NCBI RefSeq assembly: GCF_018986915.1
Contig: NZ_CP076723.1
Coordinates: 4,430,228 to 4,494,227 of the forward strand
DNA from: Geomonas oryzisoli
GTDB lineage: Bacteria > Desulfobacterota > Desulfuromonadia > Geobacterales > Geobacteraceae
Direction: 5' to 3'
Length of the DNA stretch: 64,000 nt
Part shown: one piece after another, positions 11,285 to 25,985 of the stretch
How positions within the stretch are numbered: position 1 is the first letter of the stretch
Layout of the letters: every line of letters starts with the position of its first letter
Notes under the pieces: model-generated
Seen by the model: only the letters and a program-made list of their open reading frames with translations
What the model was told of the DNA's origin: nothing
Databases searched by the model: none
Translations under genes and position numbers: made by a program

Positions 11285-11406
11285 CAGAAGAACCTTCTCT
11301 AGCGGACACGCCCGGGCGCGCAGGCCTCCCCTGTATAAGGCAGCAGTTGCAATCCGCGCAAAATGTCTTACCCTTTCCCGAGAATTCAACCTGTGCAGGA
11401 GGAACT

Positions 11407-11910
11407 ATGCCTAAAGTAACTTTCAAGGGAAACCCGGTGACACTGGTGGGGCCGGAACTGAAGGTGGGGGATGCCGCTCCCAATTTCGCCGTGGTGGACA
11501 ACTCTCTCAGTCAGGTGACGCTGGCGAGCTATGAGGGAAAGGTCAAGATCATCAGCGCGGTACCTTCACTGGACACGCCGGTCTGTGACACGGAAACCAG
11601 GCGCTTCAACCAGGAAGCGGCGGGGCTGCCGGGGAACGTGGTGGTCCTGACCGTAAGCGCCGACCTCCCTTTCGCCCAGAAGAGGTGGTGCGGAGCCGCC
11701 GGCATCGACAAGGTCGTCACCCTTTCCGATTACCGCGACCGCTCCTTCGCCCTGGCCTACGGAGTGCTGATCGAAGAACTGAAGCTTCTGGCCCGCGCCA
11801 TCTTCGTCATCGACCAAAAGAACGTGATCCGCTACATCCAGTTCGTCCCCGAGGTGACCCAGGAGCCGGACTACGCGGCGGTGCTCGCGGCGGCGAAGGG
11901 GCTTGGCTAA
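11407..11910 (+). CDS. tpx: Thiol peroxidase Tpx
   Basis: This 167-residue atypical 2-Cys peroxiredoxin reduces peroxides with thioredoxin as electron donor in the cytoplasm. The peroxidatic C60 sits in PSLDTPVCDTETRRFN and the resolving C95 in KRWCGAAG, the spacing typical of Tpx. ATG 11407 is preceded by AGGAGG; the longer upstream frame runs through repeat DNA and is not used. A terminator follows, so the gene is monocistronic. Confidence 0.96.
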   Translation: MPKVTFKGNPVTLVGPELKVGDAAPNFAVVDNSLSQVTLASYEGKVKIISAVPSLDTPVCDTETRRFNQEAAGLPGNVVVLTVSADLPFAQKRWCGAAGIDKVVTLSDYRDRSFALAYGVLIEELKLLARAIFVIDQKNVIRYIQFVPEVTQEPDYAAVLAAAKGLG

Positions 11911-13113: not shown

Positions 13114-14466
13114 ATGGGTACGCACCAGCCGACAAAACGCCGCGTGGGTCCGGGCTCCGGCTTTCGCGACGCCGCCACTTCGCTTCGCCCCCATCCCGGC
13201 GGGCACCGTCTCCCTCCCCTCCCGCATCGCCTCCCCTTTTTCCTGCTCCTGGTTCTCCTCTGCGTCGTCTGCCTTTACCGTCCGGCCGAAGCCTCCTCCG
13301 GCACCACCCTCTACTACTTCTGGGGCGAAGGTTGCCCGCATTGCGCGCAGGCCAAGCCGTTCCTGCAGGAACTGCAGCGTAAACACCCGGGACTGACGGT
13401 GCAATCATGGGAGGTGCTGCAGCACCGCGACAACATCCCGCTGCTCATGCGCATGGCGAAGGAGCGGGGCCGGGAGGCGACCGGCGTCCCGGTCTTCATC
13501 ATCGGCCCCCACTATTTCAGCGGATTTTCCGAGCAGACCCCGGCGCAGCTGGAAAACGCGGTCAAGGAGGCACTGCAGCACCAGATACCGCCGGCCGCAC
13601 CTCCCCGGGCCGCCGAGCACGTCACCGTCCCCGTCGTGGGAGATTTGGACCCGCAGCGGTCCCTCCCCGTCTTCACGATCGTGATCGCCGCGCTGGACAG
13701 CTTCAATCCGTGCGCCTTCTTCGTGCTGTTCTTTCTTTTGAGTCTTTTGATCCACGCCCGGTCGCGGCGCCGGATGTTCCTCATCGGAGGGGTCTTCGTC
13801 CTGGTGTCGGGGGTTTTGTACTTCCTGTTCCTGGCGGCCTGGCTGAACCTGTTCCTGGTGGCGGGGACGCTCCCCGCCGTCACCACGGCCGCAGGGGTTC
13901 TGGCGCTTCTCATCGGCCTGGTCAACGTGAAGGACTTCTTCCTGTTCCGGCAGGGGGTTACCCTGAGCATCCCGGAGGGGAAAAAACCCATGCTCTTCGC
14001 CCGGATGAGGCGTCTTATGAAGGCGGAGCAGCTCCCGGCGCTTCTGGCCGGAACCGGCGTTCTCGCCGTCGCCGCCAACAGCTACGAGCTGCTATGCACC
14101 GCGGGTTTTCCCATGGTTTTCACCCGCGCGCTCACGCTGCACCGGCTCTCGGCGCCAGGCTATTACTCGTACCTTGCCCTATACTGTCTTGTTTATGTGG
14201 TACCTCTGGCGGCAATCGTCGCGGTCTTTACGGTAACGCTGGGGGGGCGGAAGCTCAGTGAATGGCAGGGGCGGGTGCTGAAGCTGGTGTCGGGGCTCAT
14301 GATGCTGGGGCTGGCTGGGGTGCTGCTGGTACGGCCGTCACTTTTGAGCGATCCTGCTGTTTCGGCTTTGCTGCTGGCAGCGACCCTGGCACTGGCGGGT
14401 GTGCTGGCCCTCTGCTTCCGGCGTGGTCACCAAGACGGGGGAGAGAGCGGGGGAACTACCAGGTAG
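13114..14466 (+). CDS. Thioredoxin-like domain fused to a DsbD/CcdA-type membrane domain
   Basis: A signal-anchor segment (about residues 38-60) leads into a thioredoxin/glutaredoxin-like domain with C74-P-H-C77 (GEGCPHCAQAKPFLQEL). A linker follows, then about six to eight membrane helices with a conserved SFNPCAFFVLFFLLSLL segment and a second paired cysteine region (NSYELLCTAGFPMV), as in the DsbD/CcdA electron-transfer family. It probably carries reducing equivalents across the inner membrane to its own periplasmic thioredoxin domain, for cytochrome c maturation or disulfide repair. The first 35 residues are odd (Arg/Pro-rich), so the start is uncertain. The 3' end overlaps the convergent kinase gene by 11 bp. 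Confidence 0.82.
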   Translation: MGTHQPTKRRVGPGSGFRDAATSLRPHPGGHRLPPLPHRLPFFLLLVLLCVVCLYRPAEASSGTTLYYFWGEGCPHCAQAKPFLQELQRKHPGLTVQSWEVLQHRDNIPLLMRMAKERGREATGVPVFIIGPHYFSGFSEQTPAQLENAVKEALQHQIPPAAPPRAAEHVTVPVVGDLDPQRSLPVFTIVIAALDSFNPCAFFVLFFLLSLLIHARSRRRMFLIGGVFVLVSGVLYFLFLAAWLNLFLVAGTLPAVTTAAGVLALLIGLVNVKDFFLFRQGVTLSIPEGKKPMLFARMRRLMKAEQLPALLAGTGVLAVAANSYELLCTAGFPMVFTRALTLHRLSAPGYYSYLALYCLVYVVPLAAIVAVFTVTLGGRKLSEWQGRVLKLVSGLMMLGLAGVLLVRPSLLSDPAVSALLLAATLALAGVLALCFRRGHQDGGESGGTTR

Positions 14467-16966
14467 CGACGTTACCGGAAAGGGTGGACCTGATCTTTTC
14501 TCCGAGGCTCGCCATGTCGAATGGCTTCTGGATGAAGTTGACCCGGCGGCGGTCGACCCCCTTGTCCAGCAGGGTTTCCGGCGCATAGCCGGACATGTAG
14601 ATGATCTTCAGATCGGGACGCAGGGCGAGGATGGTTTCCACGGCGTCCCGGCCGCTCGCACCAGGAAGCATCACGTCCGAGAGTACCAGGTCGATCCGGT
14701 GTTCGGAGCGACACAGCTCCAGCGCCTCCATCGCGTTCCCCGCCAGCAGCACGCGGTACCCCATGTGCTCCAGCATCTTCAGCGTCATCCTTCCGACGAT
14801 CTCGTCATCCTCGACCACCAGCACCGTCCCGGTTGCACCCCCGGCCGGCACCGGCTTCACCTCAGCTACCCGGTCCCGATGGCGGGGGAGAAAGACCCTG
14901 AAGGTGGTGCCCATGCCGCGTTCGCTCTCCACGGTCACGAAGCCGCCGTTTTGGGTCACCATGCCGTACACGCTGGCGAGTCCCAGCCCGTTACCCTGCC
15001 CTACCTCACGCGTGGTGAAGAAAGGTTCGAACACGTGCCTGCAGGTTTCGCCGTCCATACCGTGTCCTGAATCGGAGATGGAAATCTCCAGGTAATCCCC
15101 CGGCGCCGCGTCGATATTGGTGCTGCAGGTTTCATCACCTACCGTGACGTTGCCCGTCCCGATGATCAGGCTTCCCCCGTCGGGCATGGCTGCGCCGGCG
15201 TTGCTGACGACATTGGTGATGATCTCTTCCAGTTGGGCCGGGTCGATCCTGACCGGCCACGGCTCGAGGCAAAGCTTCAGTGAGACCCGCGTTCCCGCGC
15301 CGGCCAGCAGTGAAACCTTGCGGGCCAGGTCCCCCAGCGCCTGGTTCACGTCCACCATTTTCGGCGAGATGAGCTGCTGCCGCGAAAAGCACAGGAGCTG
15401 CGCGGTGAGGTCCCGGGAGCGTTGCGCCGCCTTGGATATCTCCTGCAGCGAATCCGCGATCCGCCTGTTGCCGTGGTACTCCATGCCCAGCATCTCGGCG
15501 TAGCCGATGATGACCGACAGCATGTTGTTGAACTCGTGCGCCACCCCACCCGCCAGACGCCCCACCGACTCCATCTTGATCGACTGCCTGAGTTTGTCCT
15601 CCAGCAGCTTTTGTTGGGTGATGTCGTTGATGATCATGCCGCAGTACCCGGGCCTGGGACGGAAGAGCCAGACCTGACAGCACTTGCCGTTGAAGAAGTA
15701 TCGCTCCAGGGCCAGCGGCGTCCCCTCGCGGGCGAGCTGCCCCAGGCTCTCCATCTGGGCAGGGTCGAAATCGGGGAGCAGCTCCAGCAGGGTCCGCCCC
15801 ACCAGTGCCGCTTCGGTCTGCCCGGTGAAAGCCTCGAAGGCGGGATTGACCTCGACGAAGCGGAAGTCGGCGGGGGTTCCCTGCGGCCCCAGCAGCATTT
15901 CCAACAGGGCGAAGCCGTTGCCCATGTTCTCGAACAGCAGCCGGTACTTGTCCTCGCTCTCCTTGAGACTGCGTGAGACGGTGCGGGCCGAGACGATGGC
16001 CATGGCGCAGACGTTGGCGGCGCTGACGGCGAGGTTCAGGTACCTCTGCAGGTGCTGGGGGAGGGCGAAGTCCCCCGCCCACAGCCAACCTACCAGACCG
16101 TTGTGGTTCAGGCACACCAGGAATCCCCGGGCATCCGCGGCCACCTCGAAACTCCCCTGCATCCCCGAGGCAAGCCTGCGCAAGGTCGGCTCTTCGGTCA
16201 CCGTCTCCCCGTGACGGTACGGCGGCGCGCCACTGGCAGGAACGAAGGCCACCTCCCCGGCTCCAAAGAGCATGGCGAAAACGGAGATGAGCTCCTCGAC
16301 CACCCCCTGCTCACCGCTGCTGCTCGACATCCGGGATAGCAGATCGAGCAAAAGCGCGTAATCGGAGGCCGGCTCGCGCGCCGCTGCATCACCGCGACCC
16401 TGCCACTCCAGTGCACCGTGTGCCCGCTCCAGCTGCAGGCTCAGCAGCTCCAGGCCTACCGGCACCGTTTCCACCGGCCGCTGCACGAAGGCGCCGAACT
16501 CCGCAAGCGAGCTCGAGCTCTGCGGCACACTCCCGGTGTCGACCAGGGTGATCCTCGCGCAGCTTTCGGCGAAGAAGTCGGCGCCGGTACTCGCGTCGAA
16601 TCCCCACCCCTCCACGAAGGAGCGCCAATGAGCGAGCCACCCCGGCGTGACCAGGTAGCCACCGCCGGCTGTCAGCCGGCCGAAGGCATAGTCGCCGCAG
16701 ACGAGCGCCGCGCAGTGCCTTTTTTTGAGAAGTCGGATCCGGCGCAGGTCGTCAGGGGGGTCGCCCAGGTGTCCCAGGCATTCCCCTCCCACCACGATGG
16801 CGGGGGAGGTGCCGCACCGGCGGCGCAGGTCGTCCCAGGAAACCGGCGGACGGCCGCAGCAGCCGGTAAAGGTGGTGCACTCAGCCCCGGCCAGGGTGCT
16901 CCCGGCCAAGGCTTCGCGGACGTCGGGCCCCAGGGACTCGCAGCAATAAATGCGCGGGGTGGCCAT
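14456..16966 (-). CDS. Hybrid histidine kinase with N-terminal DUF1638-like domain
   Basis: The protein has 836 residues. ATG 16966 follows the previous stop by two bases and has GGGAGGGGG in front. Residues 1-160 are Cys/Gly-rich with YLVTPGWLAHWRSF and ARITLVDTG, which resembles DUF1638, a domain found beside corrinoid methyltransferases; this match is by eye. A GAF-like region (about 205-320), a PAS domain (about 335-450), HisKA (H477 in GGVAHEFNNML), HATPase (FEPFFTTREVGQGNGLGL) and a C-terminal receiver (D764 in LVLSDVMLPG) follow. No membrane helix is seen. It is the third gene of a coupled operon with a methyltransferase and a corrinoid protein, so it probably senses a corrinoid- or methyl-linked signal (inference). 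Confidence 0.88.
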   Translation of the reverse strand: MATPRIYCCESLGPDVREALAGSTLAGAECTTFTGCCGRPPVSWDDLRRRCGTSPAIVVGGECLGHLGDPPDDLRRIRLLKKRHCAALVCGDYAFGRLTAGGGYLVTPGWLAHWRSFVEGWGFDASTGADFFAESCARITLVDTGSVPQSSSSLAEFGAFVQRPVETVPVGLELLSLQLERAHGALEWQGRGDAAAREPASDYALLLDLLSRMSSSSGEQGVVEELISVFAMLFGAGEVAFVPASGAPPYRHGETVTEEPTLRRLASGMQGSFEVAADARGFLVCLNHNGLVGWLWAGDFALPQHLQRYLNLAVSAANVCAMAIVSARTVSRSLKESEDKYRLLFENMGNGFALLEMLLGPQGTPADFRFVEVNPAFEAFTGQTEAALVGRTLLELLPDFDPAQMESLGQLAREGTPLALERYFFNGKCCQVWLFRPRPGYCGMIINDITQQKLLEDKLRQSIKMESVGRLAGGVAHEFNNMLSVIIGYAEMLGMEYHGNRRIADSLQEISKAAQRSRDLTAQLLCFSRQQLISPKMVDVNQALGDLARKVSLLAGAGTRVSLKLCLEPWPVRIDPAQLEEIITNVVSNAGAAMPDGGSLIIGTGNVTVGDETCSTNIDAAPGDYLEISISDSGHGMDGETCRHVFEPFFTTREVGQGNGLGLASVYGMVTQNGGFVTVESERGMGTTFRVFLPRHRDRVAEVKPVPAGGATGTVLVVEDDEIVGRMTLKMLEHMGYRVLLAGNAMEALELCRSEHRIDLVLSDVMLPGASGRDAVETILALRPDLKIIYMSGYAPETLLDKGVDRRRVNFIQKPFDMASLGEKIRSTLSGNVATW

Positions 16967-16968
16967 GA

Positions 16969-18000
16969 TCACCCCCTCCCGCCGGGCAGCGGGTAGCGGC
17001 CGTACTCGCGTACGGCCTCCGCGAGCGCGGTGAGGGTCGCCTCGGGGACCTGCCAGGGGATCTCGCCGTGCTGGTCCGAGAGGATGAAGCCACCGCCTGA
17101 AGCCGCCGCCTCGATGGCCTCCTTAACAGCAGTCGCCGTGGCCGCGTCGTCCCAGTTGCGCATCCTGATGCCGTTGAGGTTGCCGACCACGGTGAGCCGA
17201 CCGCGGCAGCTCTCTTTCACGGCAGCGAGATCGTCCTCCCCCACCCCGACCATGGTCGTGCCGGTGGCGACGAGGTCGTCCACGACGCCAAGGCAGGGAC
17301 CGGAGGCGAGGTGGGTGGCGGTAGGTCCGGTGATAGCTGCTATCGTCTTTTGCGCGACGGGTGCACCGAAGCGGCGGTACAGGACGGGATCGATCATCTT
17401 GGGAGAGGCGAGCGGATCGAAATAGCAGATGGCGTGGGCTCCGGCGGCAAGCTGGGCGTTGGCCCACTCTGCGCAGAAGGCTCCGTTTAGCTCCATAAGC
17501 CTGTACATGAGGTCAGGGCGGTCGAAGATCAGGTCGAGGTAGTGGTCGAAGCCAAGCTGCATCACGGGAAGCGAGAAGGGAGACATGACGACCCCGACGA
17601 TGGGGACCGTATCGCCGACGGCCTGCCTCAATGCGCGCTGCGCTTCCAGCACCCGCCTGAGCCCCGGCTGTTCCTGAATGCGCGGCGGGACGAGCGAGGC
17701 GATCGCCTCGGCCCTGATCGGCGGGGGGCCTGCGTTGGGGGGGCCGTCCTCCCTGAAGATGGTGCTCCCCCCCCAGGCTTCCGCCTCCAGCGAGGCATGG
17801 AAGAACCCGTAGATGCAGTCGTGCCCGTAGCGCTCCAACATGCGCAACTGCCCCTGCACCACGTGCTCCGGTCTGGAGAAGTACGCCTCGATGGAAAGCC
17901 CCAGCTCCCGCGCCCCATGTAGGGAAAGGAGCAGGAACAGGGGTACCCGGTCCGGTTCCCGGTGCGAGATGGCGGTAAGGACCCGCTCCATGCTGGTCAT
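16969..18000 (-). CDS. Uroporphyrinogen decarboxylase-family (MtaA/MtbA-like) methyltransferase
   Basis: This 343-residue URO-D-fold protein starts at ATG 18000 in MTSMERVLTAISHREPDRVP, the family's usual opening. Its start overlaps the corrinoid gene's stop as ATGA, so translation is coupled. Family members move methyl groups between a corrinoid protein and a thiol such as coenzyme M, using a zinc site HxC...C. Here the aligned positions read THLASGPC and LSDQHGEIP, so neither usual Cys ligand is in place although the His is kept. The role may therefore be a divergent methyltransfer or a non-catalytic sensor part. The longer frame upstream of 18000 is only the corrinoid gene's other frame. 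Confidence 0.85.
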   Translation of the reverse strand: MTSMERVLTAISHREPDRVPLFLLLSLHGARELGLSIEAYFSRPEHVVQGQLRMLERYGHDCIYGFFHASLEAEAWGGSTIFREDGPPNAGPPPIRAEAIASLVPPRIQEQPGLRRVLEAQRALRQAVGDTVPIVGVVMSPFSLPVMQLGFDHYLDLIFDRPDLMYRLMELNGAFCAEWANAQLAAGAHAICYFDPLASPKMIDPVLYRRFGAPVAQKTIAAITGPTATHLASGPCLGVVDDLVATGTTMVGVGEDDLAAVKESCRGRLTVVGNLNGIRMRNWDDAATATAVKEAIEAAASGGGFILSDQHGEIPWQVPEATLTALAEAVREYGRYPLPGGRG

Positions 18001-18665
18001 GACACGCCCTCCCGCAGTTGCGCCAGGGCAAGCAGCACCTGGGAGGCGGTATCGCACCCGAGATCCGCCCCCACCTCGCGGTGCAGGGCGGGGTCGAGCC
18101 GGAAAGGGGCGCCCCCTACGATGATGCGGCACTCCAACCCGAGCCGGTCCAGGCCGTCGCGCACCTCGCGCACCTTCAGGGCAGACGGAAGCATCAGCGT
18201 CGAGATCAACAGGACCCGCACACCGTCCCGCTGTACGCGGTGCACCAGTTCCTGCGCGCCCACCGTGCCGTAGTCCAGGTAGGAGATCCCCGCCCCCTTG
18301 AGCACGAACCCGACCAGGCGTTTGCCCAGCAGGTGGTAATCCTCGAGCACCGCCAGCGCCACGCGCCTGCGCTCATCGACCAACGGCGGGTGCCCGCCGA
18401 GCACCTGCTCCATGAACTCCTCGCAGAGGCGTCCGCTCATGTAGACATGGGAGAGGGACAGGTCGCCGCGGTCCCACTTCTCGCCGATGACGGTCAGGGC
18501 AGGCGCGATGACCTGTTCGCAGAAACAAAGGGGAGAGAGGCCGGAGTCGGCATAGATCTGCTGCACGGCAAGGCGGTCCATGCCGATCAGGGCGGACTCC
18601 AGCAGGAGCGCGGGAGAGCCGGCGAGGTTGTCGGCAGCGTTACCGGAGTAGCAGGAGGTGACCAT
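17997..18665 (-). CDS. Cobalamin-binding (corrinoid) protein, MtaC/MtbC-like
   Basis: The protein has 222 residues. I chose ATG 18665 because GGAG lies six to ten bases upstream and the helical cap domain begins there. Residues 1-100 form the four-helix B12-binding cap (WDRGDLSLSHVYMSG). The Rossmann B12 domain follows, with EDYHLLG (the DxHxxG base-off ligand motif), LLISTLMLPSAL and RIIVGGAPF as the nucleotide-loop signatures. It is the first gene of a three-gene operon with a URO-D methyltransferase and a hybrid kinase. No MtaB- or MttB-type substrate methyltransferase is present nearby, which argues for sensing rather than growth on methyl compounds. Confidence 0.9.
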   Translation of the reverse strand: MVTSCYSGNAADNLAGSPALLLESALIGMDRLAVQQIYADSGLSPLCFCEQVIAPALTVIGEKWDRGDLSLSHVYMSGRLCEEFMEQVLGGHPPLVDERRRVALAVLEDYHLLGKRLVGFVLKGAGISYLDYGTVGAQELVHRVQRDGVRVLLISTLMLPSALKVREVRDGLDRLGLECRIIVGGAPFRLDPALHREVGADLGCDTASQVLLALAQLREGVS

Positions 18666-19148: not shown

Positions 19149-19238
19149 AGGTACCTGACCGGTGCATCTTCCCGCACAGGCCTGCCCCGGGATGGGCACT
19201 ACCGAACCGGCGCCTACCGAGGCGCGAAGGGAGCAGTG

Positions 19239-20357
19239 ATGAAACTTTTCGGCAACGCCAACCAGGGTAAGATCGACGATCAGGCCGTGGAAATCGCCAA
19301 ACTGACGCAGATGCTCGACAACGTCGACAACATCGTCATGCTCTGCGACACCACCCACGACAACAAGATCATCTATATGAACAAACAGGCCCGGGCCCTG
19401 ATGCAGCAGTACCGCAGCCAGTTGAACTCCGGGCTGCGCGGTGCCGACGTGGCCAACGCCGACGGCAACAGCATCCACCAGTTCCACAAGGACCCGGCAC
19501 GGATCCGCGCCATCTTTGGCGAGCCGCGGGGCAGGATGCCGCACACCGCCGAGATCCCGATTGGTGAGGTGACCCTGCGCACCTCTACCTACCCGATCTG
19601 GGACAGCAGGGATCCCGCCAAGGTGCTCTGCTACATGGCCTGCTGGAACGACATCACCGCGGAGAAGGCGGTGGCACAGCACCAGCGGGAGGCCATCGAG
19701 CGCAAGGAATACCTGGAGACGCGGGTGACCCAGATCGCCACCGCGATGGAAGAGATGAGCATGACGGTGAACGAGGTGGCGCGCAACACGGTGAACGCCG
19801 CCGACTCCGCCGCCGAGGTGGCCGGCAACGCGCGCGAGGGGCAAAGCGTGGTGAGCCAGGCCGTGAGCGAGATGCGCAAGGTGGCGGAGATCGTGCGGGA
19901 CTCGGCGGGAATCGTCGGGAACCTGGGGGAAAAGTCCGCCAAGATCGGGGAGTTCGTCGCCGTCATCAACGACATCGCCGACCAGACCAACCTGCTGGCA
20001 TTGAACGCAGCCATCGAGGCCGCCCGGGCCGGCGAGCAGGGGCGCGGCTTTGCCGTGGTCGCCGACGAGGTGCGCCGGCTGGCGGACCGCACCGTGGCCT
20101 CGACCAAGGAGATCCGGCTCATGGTCGAAGAGATCCAGAAGGAAACCGCCCTGGCGGTGGAATCGATCGAACGGGGCAAGAGCGAGGCCGAGGTGAGCGA
20201 GGCGCTTTCGCACCAGGTGGACAGCTCGCTCGCCAACATCGTCAACTCAATCGAGCAGATCGAACACGTCATCGCACAGATCGCCACCGCGTCCGAGGAA
20301 CAGGCCGCCACGTCGACCACCATTGCCAGCAACCTCGAGGAGATCGTGCGCGGCTGA
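19239..20357 (+). CDS. Soluble PAS-domain methyl-accepting chemotaxis protein
   Basis: The protein has 372 residues from ATG 19239, with AAGGGAG five bases upstream; a GTG three bases earlier is less well placed. Residues 15-150 form a PAS-like sensor ([21 protein letters not shown]). Residues 160-372 form a chemoreceptor signalling hairpin with the conserved tip [20 protein letters not shown]. There is no transmembrane helix, HAMP domain or C-terminal pentapeptide tether, so it is a cytoplasmic receptor. The sigma-28 promoter upstream ties it to the flagellar and chemotaxis regulon. The gene is divergent from the corrinoid operon. Confidence 0.94.
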
Positions 20358-20375: not shown

Positions 20376-21239
20376 TCACCTCCTTGAGACGGGGAGGGAA
20401 AGCCCCGCCGGACCCGGTATCCGGCGGGGCTGTTTTGCGTCCGCCAGAAGGGCAACCAGCGTGTCCAACTCGCCGGGTCGCAGGACTACCGGGCGCATCT
20501 GGGTCTGCTCCCGGCTTTTCCTCGGGTTCTCCAGCCACTTTTCCAAGGCCGCGACGCTCCACCGGCTGCGGCCGGGGGCCGTCTTCGGATAGAACTCCGA
20601 GAGGAGCCCGGAAAGGTTCGGGCCGATCCCCCCGCGCCCCAGCCCTCCCCCGTCGCGGGTGAGCGCCCGGTGGCAGGCACCGCAGCGCTTCTCGAAGATG
20701 TTCTCCCTGCCGCCGGCGCCTTCCTCGAAGTGCACCACCTGGGGCGACTCCCCCTTGCGCGCCCCCCCTTTGCCCGCAGCCTCCCGCGCCCCCGCCAGCA
20801 CTGCATTCACCAGTTCCGTTTTTTGCCGGTCGTCAAAGTAAAACTGGGGCATCAACAGGGCGGGTTTATCGAGCGCCTGGAAAATCGCCTGCGCTGTCAC
20901 CCCCGCAGGAAGCCGGTCCAGGTCCGCGGCCAACCGGTTCCCCTTCCCCGCCGAGCTGTGACAGCGGCGGCAGGCGAACCTCTCCATGAGATCGCGGCCA
21001 CGCTCCGTGGTGGCGGCGCCCGGCACGGCAAACCAGGCGAAGCGCCCCGGTACCAGGTCGTGGTGAGCGATGCGCAGCCGGTCGGACCGAGGATCGCCGG
21101 CGTGGCAACTCACGCAGCTTCCCAGGGCACGGTAGTGCACGGGGTGGCACGTGAGGCACGAGGCTCCTCCCGCCTGCACCGCCTGGTAGGGGAGCAGAAG
21201 CACCGCCAGCGTGATCAGAAGGGGGAAACGAACTGCCAA
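20376..21239 (-). CDS. Tetraheme c-type cytochrome, last gene of bc-type complex operon
   Basis: About 287 residues from a TTG start at 21239 (AGAGGTG upstream); the longer frame only copies the previous gene in another frame. A signal peptide (VRFPLLITLAVLLLPYQAVQA) precedes four CXXCH sites: CLTCH, CVSCH, CRRCH and CGACH. The last two sit in two mono-heme cytochrome c-like segments (GIGPNLSGLLSEFYPKT with a distal Met further on). It overlaps the preceding gene by 25 bp. As the final gene behind a Rieske/cytochrome b set it probably passes electrons from the complex to periplasmic cytochromes. Confidence 0.86.
   Translation of the reverse strand: MAVRFPLLITLAVLLLPYQAVQAGGASCLTCHPVHYRALGSCVSCHAGDPRSDRLRIAHHDLVPGRFAWFAVPGAATTERGRDLMERFACRRCHSSAGKGNRLAADLDRLPAGVTAQAIFQALDKPALLMPQFYFDDRQKTELVNAVLAGAREAAGKGGARKGESPQVVHFEEGAGGRENIFEKRCGACHRALTRDGGGLGRGGIGPNLSGLLSEFYPKTAPGRSRWSVAALEKWLENPRKSREQTQMRPVVLRPGELDTLVALLADAKQPRRIPGPAGLSLPVSRR
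20401..20436 (+). terminator. Terminator after the chemoreceptor, inside the end of the convergent gene
   Basis: AGCCCCGCCGGA/TCCGGCGGGGCT stem with a 7-base loop and a GTTTT tail. It encodes the last residues of the convergent cytochrome gene on the other strand. Confidence 0.85.
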
Positions 21240-21631
21240 TTGGCACCTCTGCAGAACATCGCCACGACCGTGAGCGCGAGCACCAGGGCGCAGGTGACCA
21301 GTGCCGCACAGGTCACCACCCGGGACCCACGGGGAAACCAGCAGGCGCACTGCGACGGCGCCGGACGGGAGAGCCAGGGGAGAGCGAGGAAACCGGCCAC
21401 CAGCGCCAGCACCAGGTAGATGAGGTACTTCGAGTAGCTGACCAGCTCCTGGATCCAGAGCAGGAACCATGCGGACTTGACCGGATTGGGGACTCGGGCG
21501 AGGTTCGCCTGTTCCTGCAAGGGGGCCGGGACCAGCGCGGCCAGGACCATGAGGACCAGCACCGTGAGGGCCAGGGCGATCTTGATGAGCCGGAAGAAGT
21601 GCGGCGAACTCTTTACGTAACCTCTTTTCAT
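21215..21631 (-). CDS. Cytochrome b C-terminal (subunit IV-like) membrane subunit
   Basis: This 138-residue protein has three hydrophobic helices (about 15-37, 62-82 and 98-120). VPNPVKSAWFLLWIQELVSYS corresponds to the quinol-site loop of the cytochrome b/b6 C-terminal domain (PEWYFLW-type). Start ATG 21631 overlaps the stop of the cytochrome b gene as ATGA, so the two are translationally coupled. The split into b6-like and subunit IV-like parts follows the b6f layout. Confidence 0.86.
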   Translation of the reverse strand: MKRGYVKSSPHFFRLIKIALALTVLVLMVLAALVPAPLQEQANLARVPNPVKSAWFLLWIQELVSYSKYLIYLVLALVAGFLALPWLSRPAPSQCACWFPRGSRVVTCAALVTCALVLALTVVAMFCRGANWQFVSPF

Positions 21632-22248
21632 AGGTAGGGGAGCACCCCCTTGTTCTTCCTGATCCGGTAAAAATGGAGTCCGCTCAGAAAGAACAGCGCT
21701 CCCGGGATCATCAGGATGTGCAGCACGTAAAACCTCAGCAGCGATGCCGGCTCGCCCACCCCGTCCGGCACCAGCACGGCGCGCAGCGCGCCACCAAACG
21801 GCATGATGTGCACCAGTTCCATCCCGGTCTGGGTGGCCCAGAGGGCGAGCTGATCCATGGGGAGGAGGTAGCCGGTGTACCCCTCGAATACGGCGAGTAG
21901 CAGCAGGGCGCAGCCGACCAGCCAGTTGAGCTGCCGGGGCTTTTGGTAGGCGCCGGTGAGGATCACCCTCAGGGTGTGCAGCACGATCAGCACCAGGAAG
22001 AAGTGGCTGGCGAGCCGGTGCAGGCTTCTCAGGTAGCGCCCTCCCCAGACAGACGATTCCAGGAGCAGGATGGATGGGTAGGCGGCGGCAGGGGTGGGTT
22101 GATAGTAGAAAAGGAGCAGCAGCCCCGAGGCGACCAACAGCATCAGGCAGGTGAAGGCGAGCCCCCCCAGGCACAGGGTATAGGAGAGGGTCAGGTTCTT
22201 TTGCAGCACCGCCCGGGGAAAGAGATGTTTCAGGAAGTCTTCGATCAA
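21628..22248 (-). CDS. Cytochrome b (b6-type N-terminal half)
   Basis: This 206-residue protein has four membrane helices and two pairs of histidines for the two b hemes: HRLASHFFLVLIVLHTLR and RFYVLHILMIPGALFFLSGLHFYRIRK. GYTGYLLPMDQLALWATQTG matches the cytochrome b Q-site region. It lies between a Rieske protein and a subunit IV-like gene, so it is the quinol-oxidising core of this complex in the inner membrane. Confidence 0.93.
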   Translation of the reverse strand: MIEDFLKHLFPRAVLQKNLTLSYTLCLGGLAFTCLMLLVASGLLLLFYYQPTPAAAYPSILLLESSVWGGRYLRSLHRLASHFFLVLIVLHTLRVILTGAYQKPRQLNWLVGCALLLLAVFEGYTGYLLPMDQLALWATQTGMELVHIMPFGGALRAVLVPDGVGEPASLLRFYVLHILMIPGALFFLSGLHFYRIRKNKGVLPYL

Positions 22249-22307
22249 ATCAGTTGCTCCCGCTGTTTCGCCTGCATTGCCAACCTCGACGACTCCCGCT
22301 GTCTATT

Positions 22308-22442
22308 ACCCCTCCCCTTGCGGGAGGGGGTTAGGGGGTGGGGGAAGGTGCCCTCACCGCCGTGCCCTTGCGGCTTCACCCACCCCCCTGCCCCTCCCGT
22401 CAAGGGAGGGGAGCTTACGGCTGGGCGAATGATTATTCGCCC
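22308..22442 (-). repeat. Large imperfect inverted repeat plus GGGCGAAT hairpin
   Basis: The gap between the Rieske and cytochrome b genes (22249-22442) is filled by an inverted repeat. A left arm near 22308-22348 (CCCCTCCCCTTGCGGGAGGG and on) pairs with a right arm near 22376-22413. A perfect GGGCGAAT-GATT-ATTCGCCC hairpin at 22423-22442 then abuts the Rieske stop codon. It could tune transcript level between the genes. Confidence 0.8.
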
Positions 22443-22835
22443 CTACGGTTGCACGTGGTAGTTCTCGCCCACCAGGTGCACCTGGTACCGCTCCAGGGCG
22501 CGGTCGGCGGGGCCTTTCAGCACCCGCCCCTCGCGATCGAACTCGGAGCCGTGACAGGGACAGACCAGCCCGGCGGGGGTCACGTTGACCGTGCAGCCCA
22601 GGTGCGTGCAGATCAGGTTCAGCGCGTAGACCTGCCCCCCCCGGTCCAGGACGGCGATGCGCGCCTCCCGGTACACCAGGGCTCCGTCGCGCGGGAGATC
22701 ACCCCTGGCTACCGTGAGCAGCGTCTTCGTGCGCCTGCCCCGCGGCGTAAGGAACCTGCCCAGGAACCATCCTCCCGCGACGAGCGCGATCAGGGCACCG
22801 AGGAAGCTTCGACGTGATTGACCAAGTTCTGCCAT
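22443..22835 (-). CDS. Rieske [2Fe-2S] protein of the bc-type complex
   Basis: The protein has 130 residues. The N-terminal [16 protein letters not shown] segment is a Tat-like anchor, followed by the Rieske fold with CTHLGC and CPCHGS, giving two Cys and two His ligands. It lacks nothing expected of the family and is of normal length. Its start overlaps the upstream 10-heme cytochrome gene by 46 bp. It accepts electrons from quinol at the cytochrome b Qo site. Confidence 0.95.
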
Positions 22836-24046
22836 TTTTCCAGGTACGCCCTCCGATAGGCCGTGCTCTTGCGCGAAAGTTCCAGGTACCGTCGCTCCGG
22901 GTAGAACGAACCGTTACCCATCTGCTGCCCGGCCGCATCCCAGAAGGAGGGGAGCGTCATCCCCTCGGCCTGCAGCTGGTAGATCCGGTCCTCCCTGCGC
23001 TCCAGCAGGAAGCGGCGCGGATTGTCGTGGCACCCCTCGCACATCACCGTGCCGCGACGCACCGTGTGGGGGAAAAACGCCTTCCACCGGGCCGCCAGCA
23101 GCCTGTTCTCGTCCCAGACGGCGCGGTCGTTCCTGACGTCGGTGAAGTAGGCGATGAACTCCGGCCTGATGGGGCTCACCTTCCCCCGCCGGTTCAACCC
23201 CAGCGGAGGGGCATCCTGCTGCCGCAGGTAGGCGCTCTTCAGGTACTCCTCGGCAACCTGGTCCCTGCGCAGCCCGTAGCGCTCCTGCGAGGGGCTGTTG
23301 GTGAAGCGCAGGAAAAAGGTGCCGTATTCCTGTGCGGCCCAGGCCGAGTGACAGGCCCAGCATTCCATTTTTTCCAGGTGCGCCGCGATGCGATGTTCCG
23401 GCACGCTTTGCTTCGGCTCGTGGCAGTCCCGGCATCCCTTCGCCGCCTTGCGCCCGGCGGCGAGGCTCGCCATGGAGTGGCAGTCGCCGCAGGCAAGTCC
23501 GGCCTCGGCGTGCAGGTCCGGGGTCATCTTGAGGTACGCCTCGCCGTACGCCACCTCGCCGCGCTGGTAGCGCATGCTGTCCTCGCGCGGGGCCATGCCG
23601 TAGTAATCGGTCCCGACGAAGTACCCCTTATGGCAGACGAAGCAGTCGCGGTCGCGCGGCTTGGCGATCTCGTGCCCCTTGCCGGCATGACAGTCGGTGC
23701 ACCCCTTGAGGTGGCAGGCGCCGCAGTTCTTGCCGAAGAAGCGTGCATCGACCCGGCCGTAGCTCACCGCCACGAAGTCGAGCTCACCGCGGCGGCTCCC
23801 CATCGGCTGGTCGAAGAGCGCCGCGTATCCCTTGTGGCAGCCGACACAGCCCGCGGCGCGGCTCTCCCTGGAGCCGGGGTTGGCCAGGGTCCTGGTTTCG
23901 TCCAGATGGCAGGAGAGGCAGGGAAGCCCCCGGTGCACCCCCTTGACCACCTTCTTATGGCAGACGGTGCAGTTCTCCTTGCCGAAAGCGACTGTCGCGC
24001 TAAGGAGCAGGGATAAGGCGACGATGCAGCGCATCATTGAGCGCAC
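22790..24046 (-). CDS. Decaheme c-type cytochrome of the bc-type complex operon
   Basis: The protein has 418 residues with a GTG start at 24046 (AAGGAG upstream; ATG 24037 or 24034 are alternatives). A Sec signal peptide ends near ATVAFG. I count ten CXXCH sites: CTVCH, CLSCH, CVGCH, CGACH, CTDCH, CFVCH, CGDCH, CRDCH, CWACH and CEGCH. The C-terminal 100 residues have no heme. The start overlaps the preceding cytochrome gene by 47 bp. It is periplasmic and probably links the Rieske protein to other hemes. It is Cbc-like in context, but I cannot assign a specific cbc name. Confidence 0.9.
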
Positions 24047-25985
24047 GATGGTCCAGCTCCTTTCGATAGATGGGGTCGGCGGCCTTGTCGTGGCAGACCA
24101 GGCAGAGGTTCACCGCCAGGGCGCGCCGCACCTCGACGCCGTTCAGGGGACGGGAATGCTCCCGGGTTATGGCCGAATAGGCCCGCACCTTACCCTCCTG
24201 CAGGGTCAAAAAGCCGTCCAGCGGCTTGTCCGCCGACTGCTCGCAGATCATGGTCCCCTCGATGTTCCTGCCGGCAACCACGTGCTGCCCGAATCCGAGG
24301 AAGGCGGGGTTGCCGTGGCACTCGCCGCAGCCGATCGCCTTCTTGCCGGTGTTGTGCGAGTAGAAGGGGGCGAAGCGAAGCTGCTGTTTCCCCTTGAAGC
24401 GCGCCACGTATTCGTTTTTGGAGAGGCTGCTGTCCGGCTCCACCACGCTCACGAAGGTCTGGCACCCCGGGGTGACCGTGGAGATCCTGCCGCGCTGGTT
24501 CAGGGCCAGCGGGAAGGGGTAGAGCATCCGGTAATCTTCCTTCTCGCTGAAGCGACCCGGCGTCGGCATCCCCTTCACATAGTCCATGGCGGAGCGGGTC
24601 TTGTCGTAGCTGGTGTGACAGCCGTAGCACTGGACCACGGTGCGGCTGTGGCAGGAGTAGCATTCCATCCGGCCGTGCCCCACCACGGTATGCTCCGGGC
24701 TTCCCGTGATCACCCGGCTTTTGAAGAGCCTGCCGCTGCGCTTGCCCAGCACCCACACCGCGCCGTCGCGATAGAAGACGTTGGAGTAGGCGCGCCCCTT
24801 GGCGGTGAGGATCATCTTCATCCCCTGCCGCATCTGCATCCGGTACCCCTGGGACTCCCGCAGCGCCTCGTCGCTTTCGCCGGAGATCTCCCGGTAACGC
24901 GGTGGCCTCGCCCCGCCGTGGCAGTCCTCGCAGGCGATCTCGGTCTGCAGGTACATGTTCTTGTAGGAGTAGCCGTCACCCATCAGGTCGCGCGAGGTGT
25001 GGCAGTCGATGCAGTCCATCCCGGCGGCGAAGTGAACGTCGGGGGCGATGTGGGTCAGGTTCCTGTTGCCGCCGGCCACGACCGGTCCCGGCTGCCCGAA
25101 GCGGGTCGGCACCAGCGAGTTGTTGCCGTCGTTCAGCCCCTGGTACGAGTAGGCGATGCGCCCGCTGCGGTTGTGGCAACGGGAACAGACCTCGTTGCCG
25201 GGGAGCCGCTCCATGGCGTGGCTGGCCGCGTAGGGTCCCCTTCCCAGAACGGTGGCGTCCCCGCCCCGGTACAGCGCGCGATCGTTGTAGGGAAAGTGGC
25301 AGGCGGCGCACCCCGAGGCGTGGCTGGCCCCGTAGACCTCACCACTCTCCCGGGCCACGTGACACTGAGCGCAGAACTTGCGGTACAGCTCGCCGGAGAG
25401 GTGGTCAAGCTCCGCCACCGGCTGGAGCCGCAGCGGCTTACCGGCGGGATCGGAGACCTCGCCGCCACGGCTGGCGTAGTCCCCATCCTCGGGCCCTTCC
25501 CAGGTGAGCCGGATGTTGCGGATCATGCCCGTCGTCGTGTACATAAGGTTCGACCTCACCCGGTCCAGTTGGTACAGGTGACACGCACCGCAGCTCTTGT
25601 CCCAGTGCTCGGGCGCCGAGGGGTTGCCCTTGCCGAGCATGCCGCGGTGCGCCGCCTCTTTCTCCCGGGCCTTGCCGTCGCCGCCGTGACAGGCGACGCA
25701 GTCGCGGTGGGTGGCCGAGGCGTGTTCGATGCCGGCGTGGCAGGAGAGGCAGTTTTCGGGCGGTGCTCCCTTACCGATACACCCGGCAGCGAAAAGGGCA
25801 GCCAGCAGAGTTGCTTGGCGGGTAACCCTGGACCAGCCGGATGGCTGCCGCGCTACGGTCCCCGCCCCCGGAGGGGGAGGGCCAGGGAGGGGGAAATTGA
25901 TCCCGCACGCATCCTGTGTCCCCCCTCCCGACCTCCCCCCTCCGGGGGGAGGAGCTGGGTATGTTTCTCGGTCTGTAACCTTCAT
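24000..25985 (-). CDS. Dodecaheme c-type cytochrome, probable lipoprotein
   Basis: The frame holds 661 codons. Twelve CXXCH sites are spread through it: CLSCH, CVACH, CGACH, CAQCH, CAACH, CSRCH, CIDCH, CEDCH, CYSCH, CYGCH, CGECH and CLVCH. A hydrophobic segment LLAALFAAGC about 65 residues in looks like a lipobox. The only ATG before it, at 25985, would add about 50 residues encoded by a palindromic repeat (25857-25962), and its ribosome-binding site is weak. The true start may therefore be a rare codon, or the repeat may have split the signal region. It heads the six-gene bc-type operon. Confidence 0.85.
   Translation of the reverse strand: MKVTDRETYPAPPPGGGRSGGGTQDACGINFPLPGPPPPGAGTVARQPSGWSRVTRQATLLAALFAAGCIGKGAPPENCLSCHAGIEHASATHRDCVACHGGDGKAREKEAAHRGMLGKGNPSAPEHWDKSCGACHLYQLDRVRSNLMYTTTGMIRNIRLTWEGPEDGDYASRGGEVSDPAGKPLRLQPVAELDHLSGELYRKFCAQCHVARESGEVYGASHASGCAACHFPYNDRALYRGGDATVLGRGPYAASHAMERLPGNEVCSRCHNRSGRIAYSYQGLNDGNNSLVPTRFGQPGPVVAGGNRNLTHIAPDVHFAAGMDCIDCHTSRDLMGDGYSYKNMYLQTEIACEDCHGGARPPRYREISGESDEALRESQGYRMQMRQGMKMILTAKGRAYSNVFYRDGAVWVLGKRSGRLFKSRVITGSPEHTVVGHGRMECYSCHSRTVVQCYGCHTSYDKTRSAMDYVKGMPTPGRFSEKEDYRMLYPFPLALNQRGRISTVTPGCQTFVSVVEPDSSLSKNEYVARFKGKQQLRFAPFYSHNTGKKAIGCGECHGNPAFLGFGQHVVAGRNIEGTMICEQSADKPLDGFLTLQEGKVRAYSAITREHSRPLNGVEVRRALAVNLCLVCHDKAADPIYRKELDHRALNDALHRRLIPAP
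25857..25962 (-). repeat. GC-rich palindromic repeat inside the 5' end of the dodecaheme gene
   Basis: CCCCCGGAGGGGGAGGG near 25865 pairs with CCCCTCCGGGGGGAGGAG near 25936-25954, with a looser repeat between them. It is the same general type as the element at 22.3 kb. On the minus strand it encodes the low-complexity PAPPPGGGRSGGG ... PLPGPPPPGAG stretch. Confidence 0.75.

Follow-up and report, generated by a model that had tools for sequence, protein, structure and literature searches.

A corrinoid protein, a URO-D protein and a DUF1638 hybrid kinase of Geomonas oryzisoli probably form a signal-transduction module

Results

Three closely coupled genes encode a corrinoid protein, a URO-D protein and a hybrid kinase

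The window analyzed here is a stretch of 64,000 nucleotides from Geomonas oryzisoli (contig NZ_CP076723.1, positions 4,430,228 to 4,494,227). On its minus strand lie the genes for a corrinoid protein, a URO-D superfamily methyltransferase-like protein (URO-D protein) and a hybrid histidine kinase (Table 1). The initial annotation had described them as tightly coupled, and re-deriving coordinates and junctions bore out both the ATGA overlap of the corrinoid and URO-D genes and the short spacing in front of the kinase gene, whose ATG at 16966 lies 2 bases past the URO-D stop codon and is preceded by GGAGG.

Table 1. Features of the three-gene unit (positions in the window)
Feature	Position	Strand	Evidence
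Corrinoid (B12-carrying) protein gene	17997-18665	-	222 aa; Pfam PF02607 and PF02310 above cut-off
URO-D superfamily methyltransferase-like gene	16969-18000	-	343 aa; PF01208, 181 bits
Hybrid histidine kinase gene	14456-16966	-	836 aa; Pfam domains and motif positions
ATGA stop/start overlap of corrinoid and URO-D genes	17997-18000	-	Sequence context TC-ATGA-CC
DUF1638 input domain (kinase residues 1-190)	16397-16966	-	PF07796, 36.7 bits; alignments; structure model
GAF domain (kinase residues ~184-343)	15938-16417	-	Alignment, model pLDDT 86, Foldseek; missed by Pfam

The unit is flanked by a divergent gene for a PAS-MCP chemoreceptor (19236-20357, plus strand; about 570 bp intergenic) and by a convergent gene for a DsbD-like membrane protein with a thioredoxin-like N-terminal domain (13114-14463, plus strand). 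The chemoreceptor gene adjoins the module in L024, L031, L032, and L033 but not in other relatives, and the synteny of the DsbD-like gene, tpx (11404-11907), and the module is retained in most Geomonas loci. Translations read by eye indicate cytochrome b/Rieske-like and multihaem c-type cytochrome open reading frames at 20376-25985 (minus strand), of the kind typical for Geobacteraceae respiration.

By Pfam, the corrinoid protein consists of a B12-binding_2 cap (PF02607) and a B12-binding domain (PF02310), and its closest solved structures are MtmC and MttC. It carries the cobalt-ligand motif D109-x-H111-x-x-G114; D109, H111, and G114, together with S155, G184, and G185, are invariant across 44 aligned module homologues. 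The set of features that marks methyltransferase corrinoid proteins (both domains, DxHxxG, the serine, and GG) is thus complete. Because DxHxxG, S155, and GG are kept in 44/44 homologues, module corrinoid proteins are expected to bind cobalamin in the base-off/His-on mode. A GxxW motif is also retained, with G61 present in all 44 sequences and W64 in 43. The position of W64 is occupied by Phe in methylamine corrinoid proteins such as MtmC and by the signature Trp in CarH.

The URO-D protein lacks the Cys zinc ligands of MtaA

The best named subfamily match of the URO-D protein is the MtaA/CmuA model TIGR01463, which it hits with 106.5 bits, below the curated cut-off of 235.4. The HxC zinc motif of MtaA corresponds to H230-L-A232, so that Ala232 stands in place of the first Cys, and the second Cys maps into S-D-N/Q-H311-G-E313 (S-D-Q here). 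The His-Cys-Cys ligand set typical of MtaA/CmuA is therefore not present in the protein. MtaA-type Cys ligands were missing from all module URO-D proteins examined (motif columns of 55 homologues), and H311 and E313 were strictly conserved in 31/31 proteins. By curated score and ligands, the URO-D protein is placed outside the MtaA/CmuA subfamily.

His-Cys-Cys is the mark of S-methyltransferases in the URO-D superfamily, whereas in its O-methyltransferases one or both Cys are swapped for carboxylates or non-ligands (PMC10418091). The altered ligands suggest either that the URO-D protein acts on an O-methyl substrate or that it has lost catalysis; it may accordingly be a substrate-specific methyltransferase of the O-demethylase type or a relative that only binds. 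The phenolic O-demethylases OdmB and VdmB are substrate-specific methyltransferases of this superfamily (PMC10418091), and for this reason a missing MtaB or MttB is in itself a weak argument for a sensory rather than a catabolic role. The statement of the initial annotation that no substrate-specific methyltransferase lies nearby thus holds for the MttB and MtaB families, which have no member anywhere in the genome, but not necessarily for the URO-D protein, which may itself be one given the loss of the MtaA Cys ligands.

The kinase combines a DUF1638 domain with GAF, PAS and an intact kinase core and receiver

Pfam recognizes DUF1638, PAS, HisKA, HATPase_c, and Response_reg in this order in the kinase; the full architecture is DUF1638-GAF-PAS-HisKA (H477)-HATPase_c-REC (D764). 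All domains and the H, N, G, and D motifs of a hybrid histidine kinase are present and intact (HEFNN at 477, NVVSNAG at 585, DSGHGMD at 632, GNGLGL at 658, and SDVMLP at 763). The DUF1638-like nature of the N-terminal domain, previously proposed by resemblance, was confirmed by the profile: PF07796 matched residues 57-175 with 36.7 bits against a curated cut-off of 27, and the suggested search of residues 1-160, run as 1-166, still gave 32.2 bits. In this DUF1638 subtype, C9 and C85 are invariant (29/29), C37 is kept in at least 90% and C63 is nearly invariant; C9, C63, and C85 are invariant in a smaller alignment that includes stand-alone members.

The predicted structure of DUF1638 is an alpha/beta domain (pLDDT 93.9, pTM 0.89). 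Foldseek found no match to this model in the PDB at E <= 0.001, and the DUF1638 sequence had no credible match among solved structures. With VIA, receiver domains reached Z scores of up to 8.4 and LacI-like folds scored about 6; we claim no kinship with either, as these scores are at the level expected for common alpha/beta arrangements. Cysteine spacing seen by eye and the weak VIA rows 8rvu_F and 5odc_D brought up the Fe-S domain of FlpD/MvhD as a relative, which was dismissed at an hhalign probability of 0.2-0.6%. Residues 184-343, by alignment a region common to the histidine kinase and GGDEF fusions, are predicted to fold as a GAF domain: Foldseek returned 16 PDB matches at E <= 0.001, with GAF domains and phytochromes that contain one making up most of the top matches (prob 1.00).

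The gene order is conserved in about nine phyla

The three genes occur together in 11/11 close Geomonas orthologous loci. We also scanned 84,980 species, one genome each, with the DUF1638 domain as the only query, using the peptide patterns CGRPP and TPGWLxxWR and leaving the corrinoid and URO-D proteins outside the query. This yielded 32 loci with this DUF1638 subtype, many of them from MAGs, distributed over about nine phyla (Desulfobacterota, Pseudomonadota, Nitrospirae, Chloroflexi, Firmicutes, Spirochaetes, Acidobacteria with Holophagaceae, Verrucomicrobia, and Poribacteria). In 32 of the 32, corrinoid and URO-D genes lie directly upstream on the same strand, with a gap of mostly -11 to +8 bp between the methyltransferase and DUF1638 genes. 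Since it is kept both in all orthologues and in all loci found by the DUF1638 domain alone, the gene order is not due to chance. Of the two outcomes that the initial annotation had named as counter-evidence, neither occurred: the N-terminal domain matches the DUF1638 profile, and we found no DUF1638-kinase fusion apart from corrinoid genes. A full reading of large DUF1638 open frames from other genomes (L063, L064, L072, L076, and L121-L123) revealed no signaling part.

Output domains are exchanged behind a constant input

Of the 32 loci, 16 encode a fusion of DUF1638 with a histidine kinase and nine a fusion with GGDEF; the remaining seven proteins had no recognized output. DUF1638 stands N-terminal to the signaling domains, as verified by Pfam for examples. 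In the URO-D tree, histidine kinase and GGDEF forms are separated by at least four changes by parsimony, an approximate count from a quick tree with open forks. One of the seven outputless proteins ends at a contig end; the six others are not truncated. Among the outputless forms, L094, L101, L103, L104, and L105 encode proteins of 318-447 aa, mostly with GAF; a separate kinase-like stretch lies about 150 bp downstream in L105 and about 2 kb downstream in L104. Such members may have their output in trans.

A second, more distant branch (28-30% URO-D identity) has a stand-alone DUF1638 protein, with the gene order corrinoid-URO-D-DUF1638 followed by a separate kinase that Pfam resolves as GAF-PAS-HisKA-HATPase-REC. 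We found this split form in the Geobacteraceae loci L036, L039, and L040 as well as in G407 (L114) and G074 (L116), and a fusion of the same branch, DUF1638-GAF-PAS-PAS-HD-GYP, in G113 (L113). That DUF1638 and the kinase are fused in one lineage and adjacent in another is good evidence that they act together. Geomonas sp. Red32 carries one module per branch in tandem (L036, G026:C21 / L096): the split module is followed about 2 kb on by the fused module L096, in which the DUF1638 protein has a coiled-coil end and no recognized output.

The module lacks the defining partners of a catabolic corrinoid system

The G. oryzisoli genome encodes a single DUF1638 and two URO-D proteins, the other of which scores 464 bits and is evidently HemE. 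Likewise, there are two proteins with a B12-binding_2 cap; the second, whose open frame spans 823 aa, is probably MetH/methionine synthase, judging from this length. One RACo-type activase is encoded about 670 kb from the module. Using tblastn with two RACo queries, which cross-detect each other at 69% identity and could miss a very distant RACo, we detected none in 68 module- or DUF1638-bearing sequences. RACo was also not found in 6 of 12 host genomes tested, a soft absence as these are mostly MAGs. Several congeners have a further corrinoid gene with RACo about 4 kb away (e.g., G023:C8 and G028:C1), which is the arrangement expected of a metabolic system and is absent at the module. With neither MttB/MtaB nor a detected RamA/RACo by the corrinoid gene, the module does not qualify as a catabolic corrinoid system on the partners that define one.

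Discussion

A sensory module with a corrinoid methyltransferase pair as input

We consider it probable that the three genes encode a signal-transduction module with a corrinoid methyltransferase pair as its input. Outputs exchange behind a constant input, as is typical of sensors but not of catabolic enzyme sets, and the swapping of histidine kinase, GGDEF, and HD-GYP, the split and fused forms, and the absence of an activase and of MttB/MtaB argue for a sensory rather than a catabolic function. In the proposed mechanism, the ligand of the URO-D protein would be a small compound with a methyl group, probably an O-methyl group; the URO-D protein would then either move this group to the corrinoid cobalt or dock onto the corrinoid protein in a ligand-dependent manner. 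The corrinoid protein in the resulting state would bind the DUF1638 domain of the kinase, and GAF and PAS would relay the signal to the HisKA/HATPase core, leading to phosphorylation of H477 and then of D764 in the attached receiver, from which the phosphoryl group may pass to an unlinked partner. In other bacteria, the same input would control GGDEF, and with it c-di-GMP synthesis, or HD-GYP, a domain of the c-di-GMP phosphodiesterase type. Here the contact between DUF1638 and the corrinoid protein, the methyl transfer, the kind of compound bound, and the way in which control runs are all inferred. If methyl transfer needs Co(I), the electrons may come from DUF1638, or the transfer may be a slow or single-turnover event, or may not take place.

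The initial annotation had read the genes as a sensory module in which a kinase reads the methylation state of a B12 protein. Its sensory, non-catabolic part is supported, whereas cobalt methylation is not established as the signal and is one of several possible readouts, next to ligand, redox, and cobalamin state. We give somewhat less than even chances to a new class of bacterial sensor in which the methyltransferase reaction itself is the sensing event. In it, the URO-D protein would charge the B12 protein with a methyl group taken from a compound in the environment, and DUF1638 would read methylated or demethylated cobalt for an interchangeable output, a hybrid kinase here and c-di-GMP synthesis or breakdown in other bacteria. 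The one experimental anchor found is in Phaeobacter, where genetics ties DUF1638 to corrinoid proteins: methionine rescues a DUF1638 mutant of P. inhibens, which is cofit with a RamA-like protein and the split MetH (PMC5764234). The same phenotype could, however, mean that DUF1638 helps B12 reactivation and is a working part, not a reader, and the altered zinc ligands of the URO-D protein may mean that no methyl group is transferred. We also count the six untruncated outputless DUF1638 proteins and the one RACo elsewhere in the genome against the sensor model.

The module could also be a sensor that only binds, with the URO-D protein as a non-catalytic receptor, the corrinoid protein sensing cobalamin supply or redox, and the four-Cys DUF1638 switching in response to metal or redox state. 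Being sensory too, such a module overlaps with the preferred reading, minus methyl transfer. It would fit the lack of MtaA-type Cys ligands in every examined module URO-D protein, the six host genomes without an activase, and the conservation of C9, C85, and C37 in DUF1638. We nevertheless regard it as rather unlikely, because the URO-D proteins keep a different strict pocket around H311 and E313 that would fit an active site, and in O-demethylases of the superfamily one or both of the Cys ligands are likewise missing (PMC10418091). The homology of the URO-D and corrinoid proteins to enzymes and the effect of DUF1638 on methionine synthesis in P. inhibens (PMC5764234) would instead suit a catabolic or assimilatory methyltransferase operon carrying its own regulator kinase, in which DUF1638 serves the enzyme. 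Such an operon is improbable: no activase was detected at the module, MttB/MtaB are absent from the genome, the only other B12-binding_2 protein is the probable MetH of about 820 aa, and GGDEF and HD-GYP outputs are ill-suited to a local operon regulator.

Least likely is a cobalamin photoreceptor, in which light would cleave the Co-C bond of the corrinoid and the kinase would report this, as in CarH and photocobilins. The light signature of B12 photoreceptors comprises GxxW, EH, GxxH, and GxxxP (PMC11796333). One of these four elements, GxxW, is kept in the module proteins, and a photocobilin with a GGDEF domain (8j2y) is a weak PDB match to the corrinoid protein. EH, however, is absent in 44/44 homologues, which have V/N/I-Y/F there, and the cobalt His does not lie in a GxxH. 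We therefore rejected a CarH/photocobilin-type photoreceptor, which would also leave the obligate URO-D partner unexplained.

Relation to known systems

A literature search, with subscription papers and most preprints outside its scope, found no description of a module of corrinoid protein, kinase, and URO-D protein. As in MtaA/MtbA/MtsA and CmuA (TIGR01463), a URO-D fold is paired with a small B12-binding_2/B12-binding carrier. Unlike that family, the module lies below the cut-off, has neither His-Cys-Cys nor MtaB/MttB, and is coupled to a signaling protein. OdmB and VdmB systems include an activase as well as a methyltransferase with tetrahydrofolate as acceptor. The resemblance to the OdmB/VdmB class, drawn by description and not by sequence, is that superfamily O-methyltransferases also have their Cys ligands replaced (PMC10418091). 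Type 1 mlp clusters of bacteria also combine genes for MtaA-like proteins and a corrinoid protein but differ in having several His-Cys-Cys Mlps and a Ram/RACE activase; the text describing them mentions neither a DUF domain nor a signal protein (PMC10418091). In the split MetH system of Phaeobacter, a DUF1638 gene adjoins a corrinoid gene and is functionally tied to it, but DUF1638 stands alone there, and the system serves methionine synthesis, includes a RamA-like protein, and has no signaling domain (PMC5764234).

CarH and photocobilins likewise use a B12-binding domain as sensor, and some are fused to a diguanylate cyclase (PMC11796333, PMC10979010). In these proteins, however, the B12 domain lies inside the output protein, the light residues are present, and neither URO-D nor DUF1638 is involved. 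The MsmS-type sensor kinases of Methanosarcina, which are linked to methyltransferase genes, are heme-based redox sensors. The module is most like a two-component or c-di-GMP signaling protein, but one with an input domain that relies on two further proteins as partners. It looks like a way to sense and not to eat a methylated compound, in which bacterial signal transduction is given a new input; proof that methyl transfer is what is sensed would make it categorically new.

The distribution suggests that a B12 methyl-transfer pair serves as a detector in bacteria of about nine phyla, where it would probably respond to methylated compounds of anoxic soils and sediments. As the output swaps between kinases and c-di-GMP enzymes, this detector could set biofilm formation, motility, or gene expression. 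In annotation pipelines, the module genes would be labeled as methylotrophy or heme biosynthesis, and those traits would thus be overcounted. DUF1638, a family without an assigned function, gains a testable role, i.e., coupling a corrinoid protein to signaling. Outside the module, L118 (G394:C8, 4948-6908), with no corrinoid or URO-D gene detected nearby, encodes DUF1638 of another subtype (SCGTLSPELNYL). A short kinase-like open reading frame follows directly downstream, and the locus is possibly a further signaling use of this domain.
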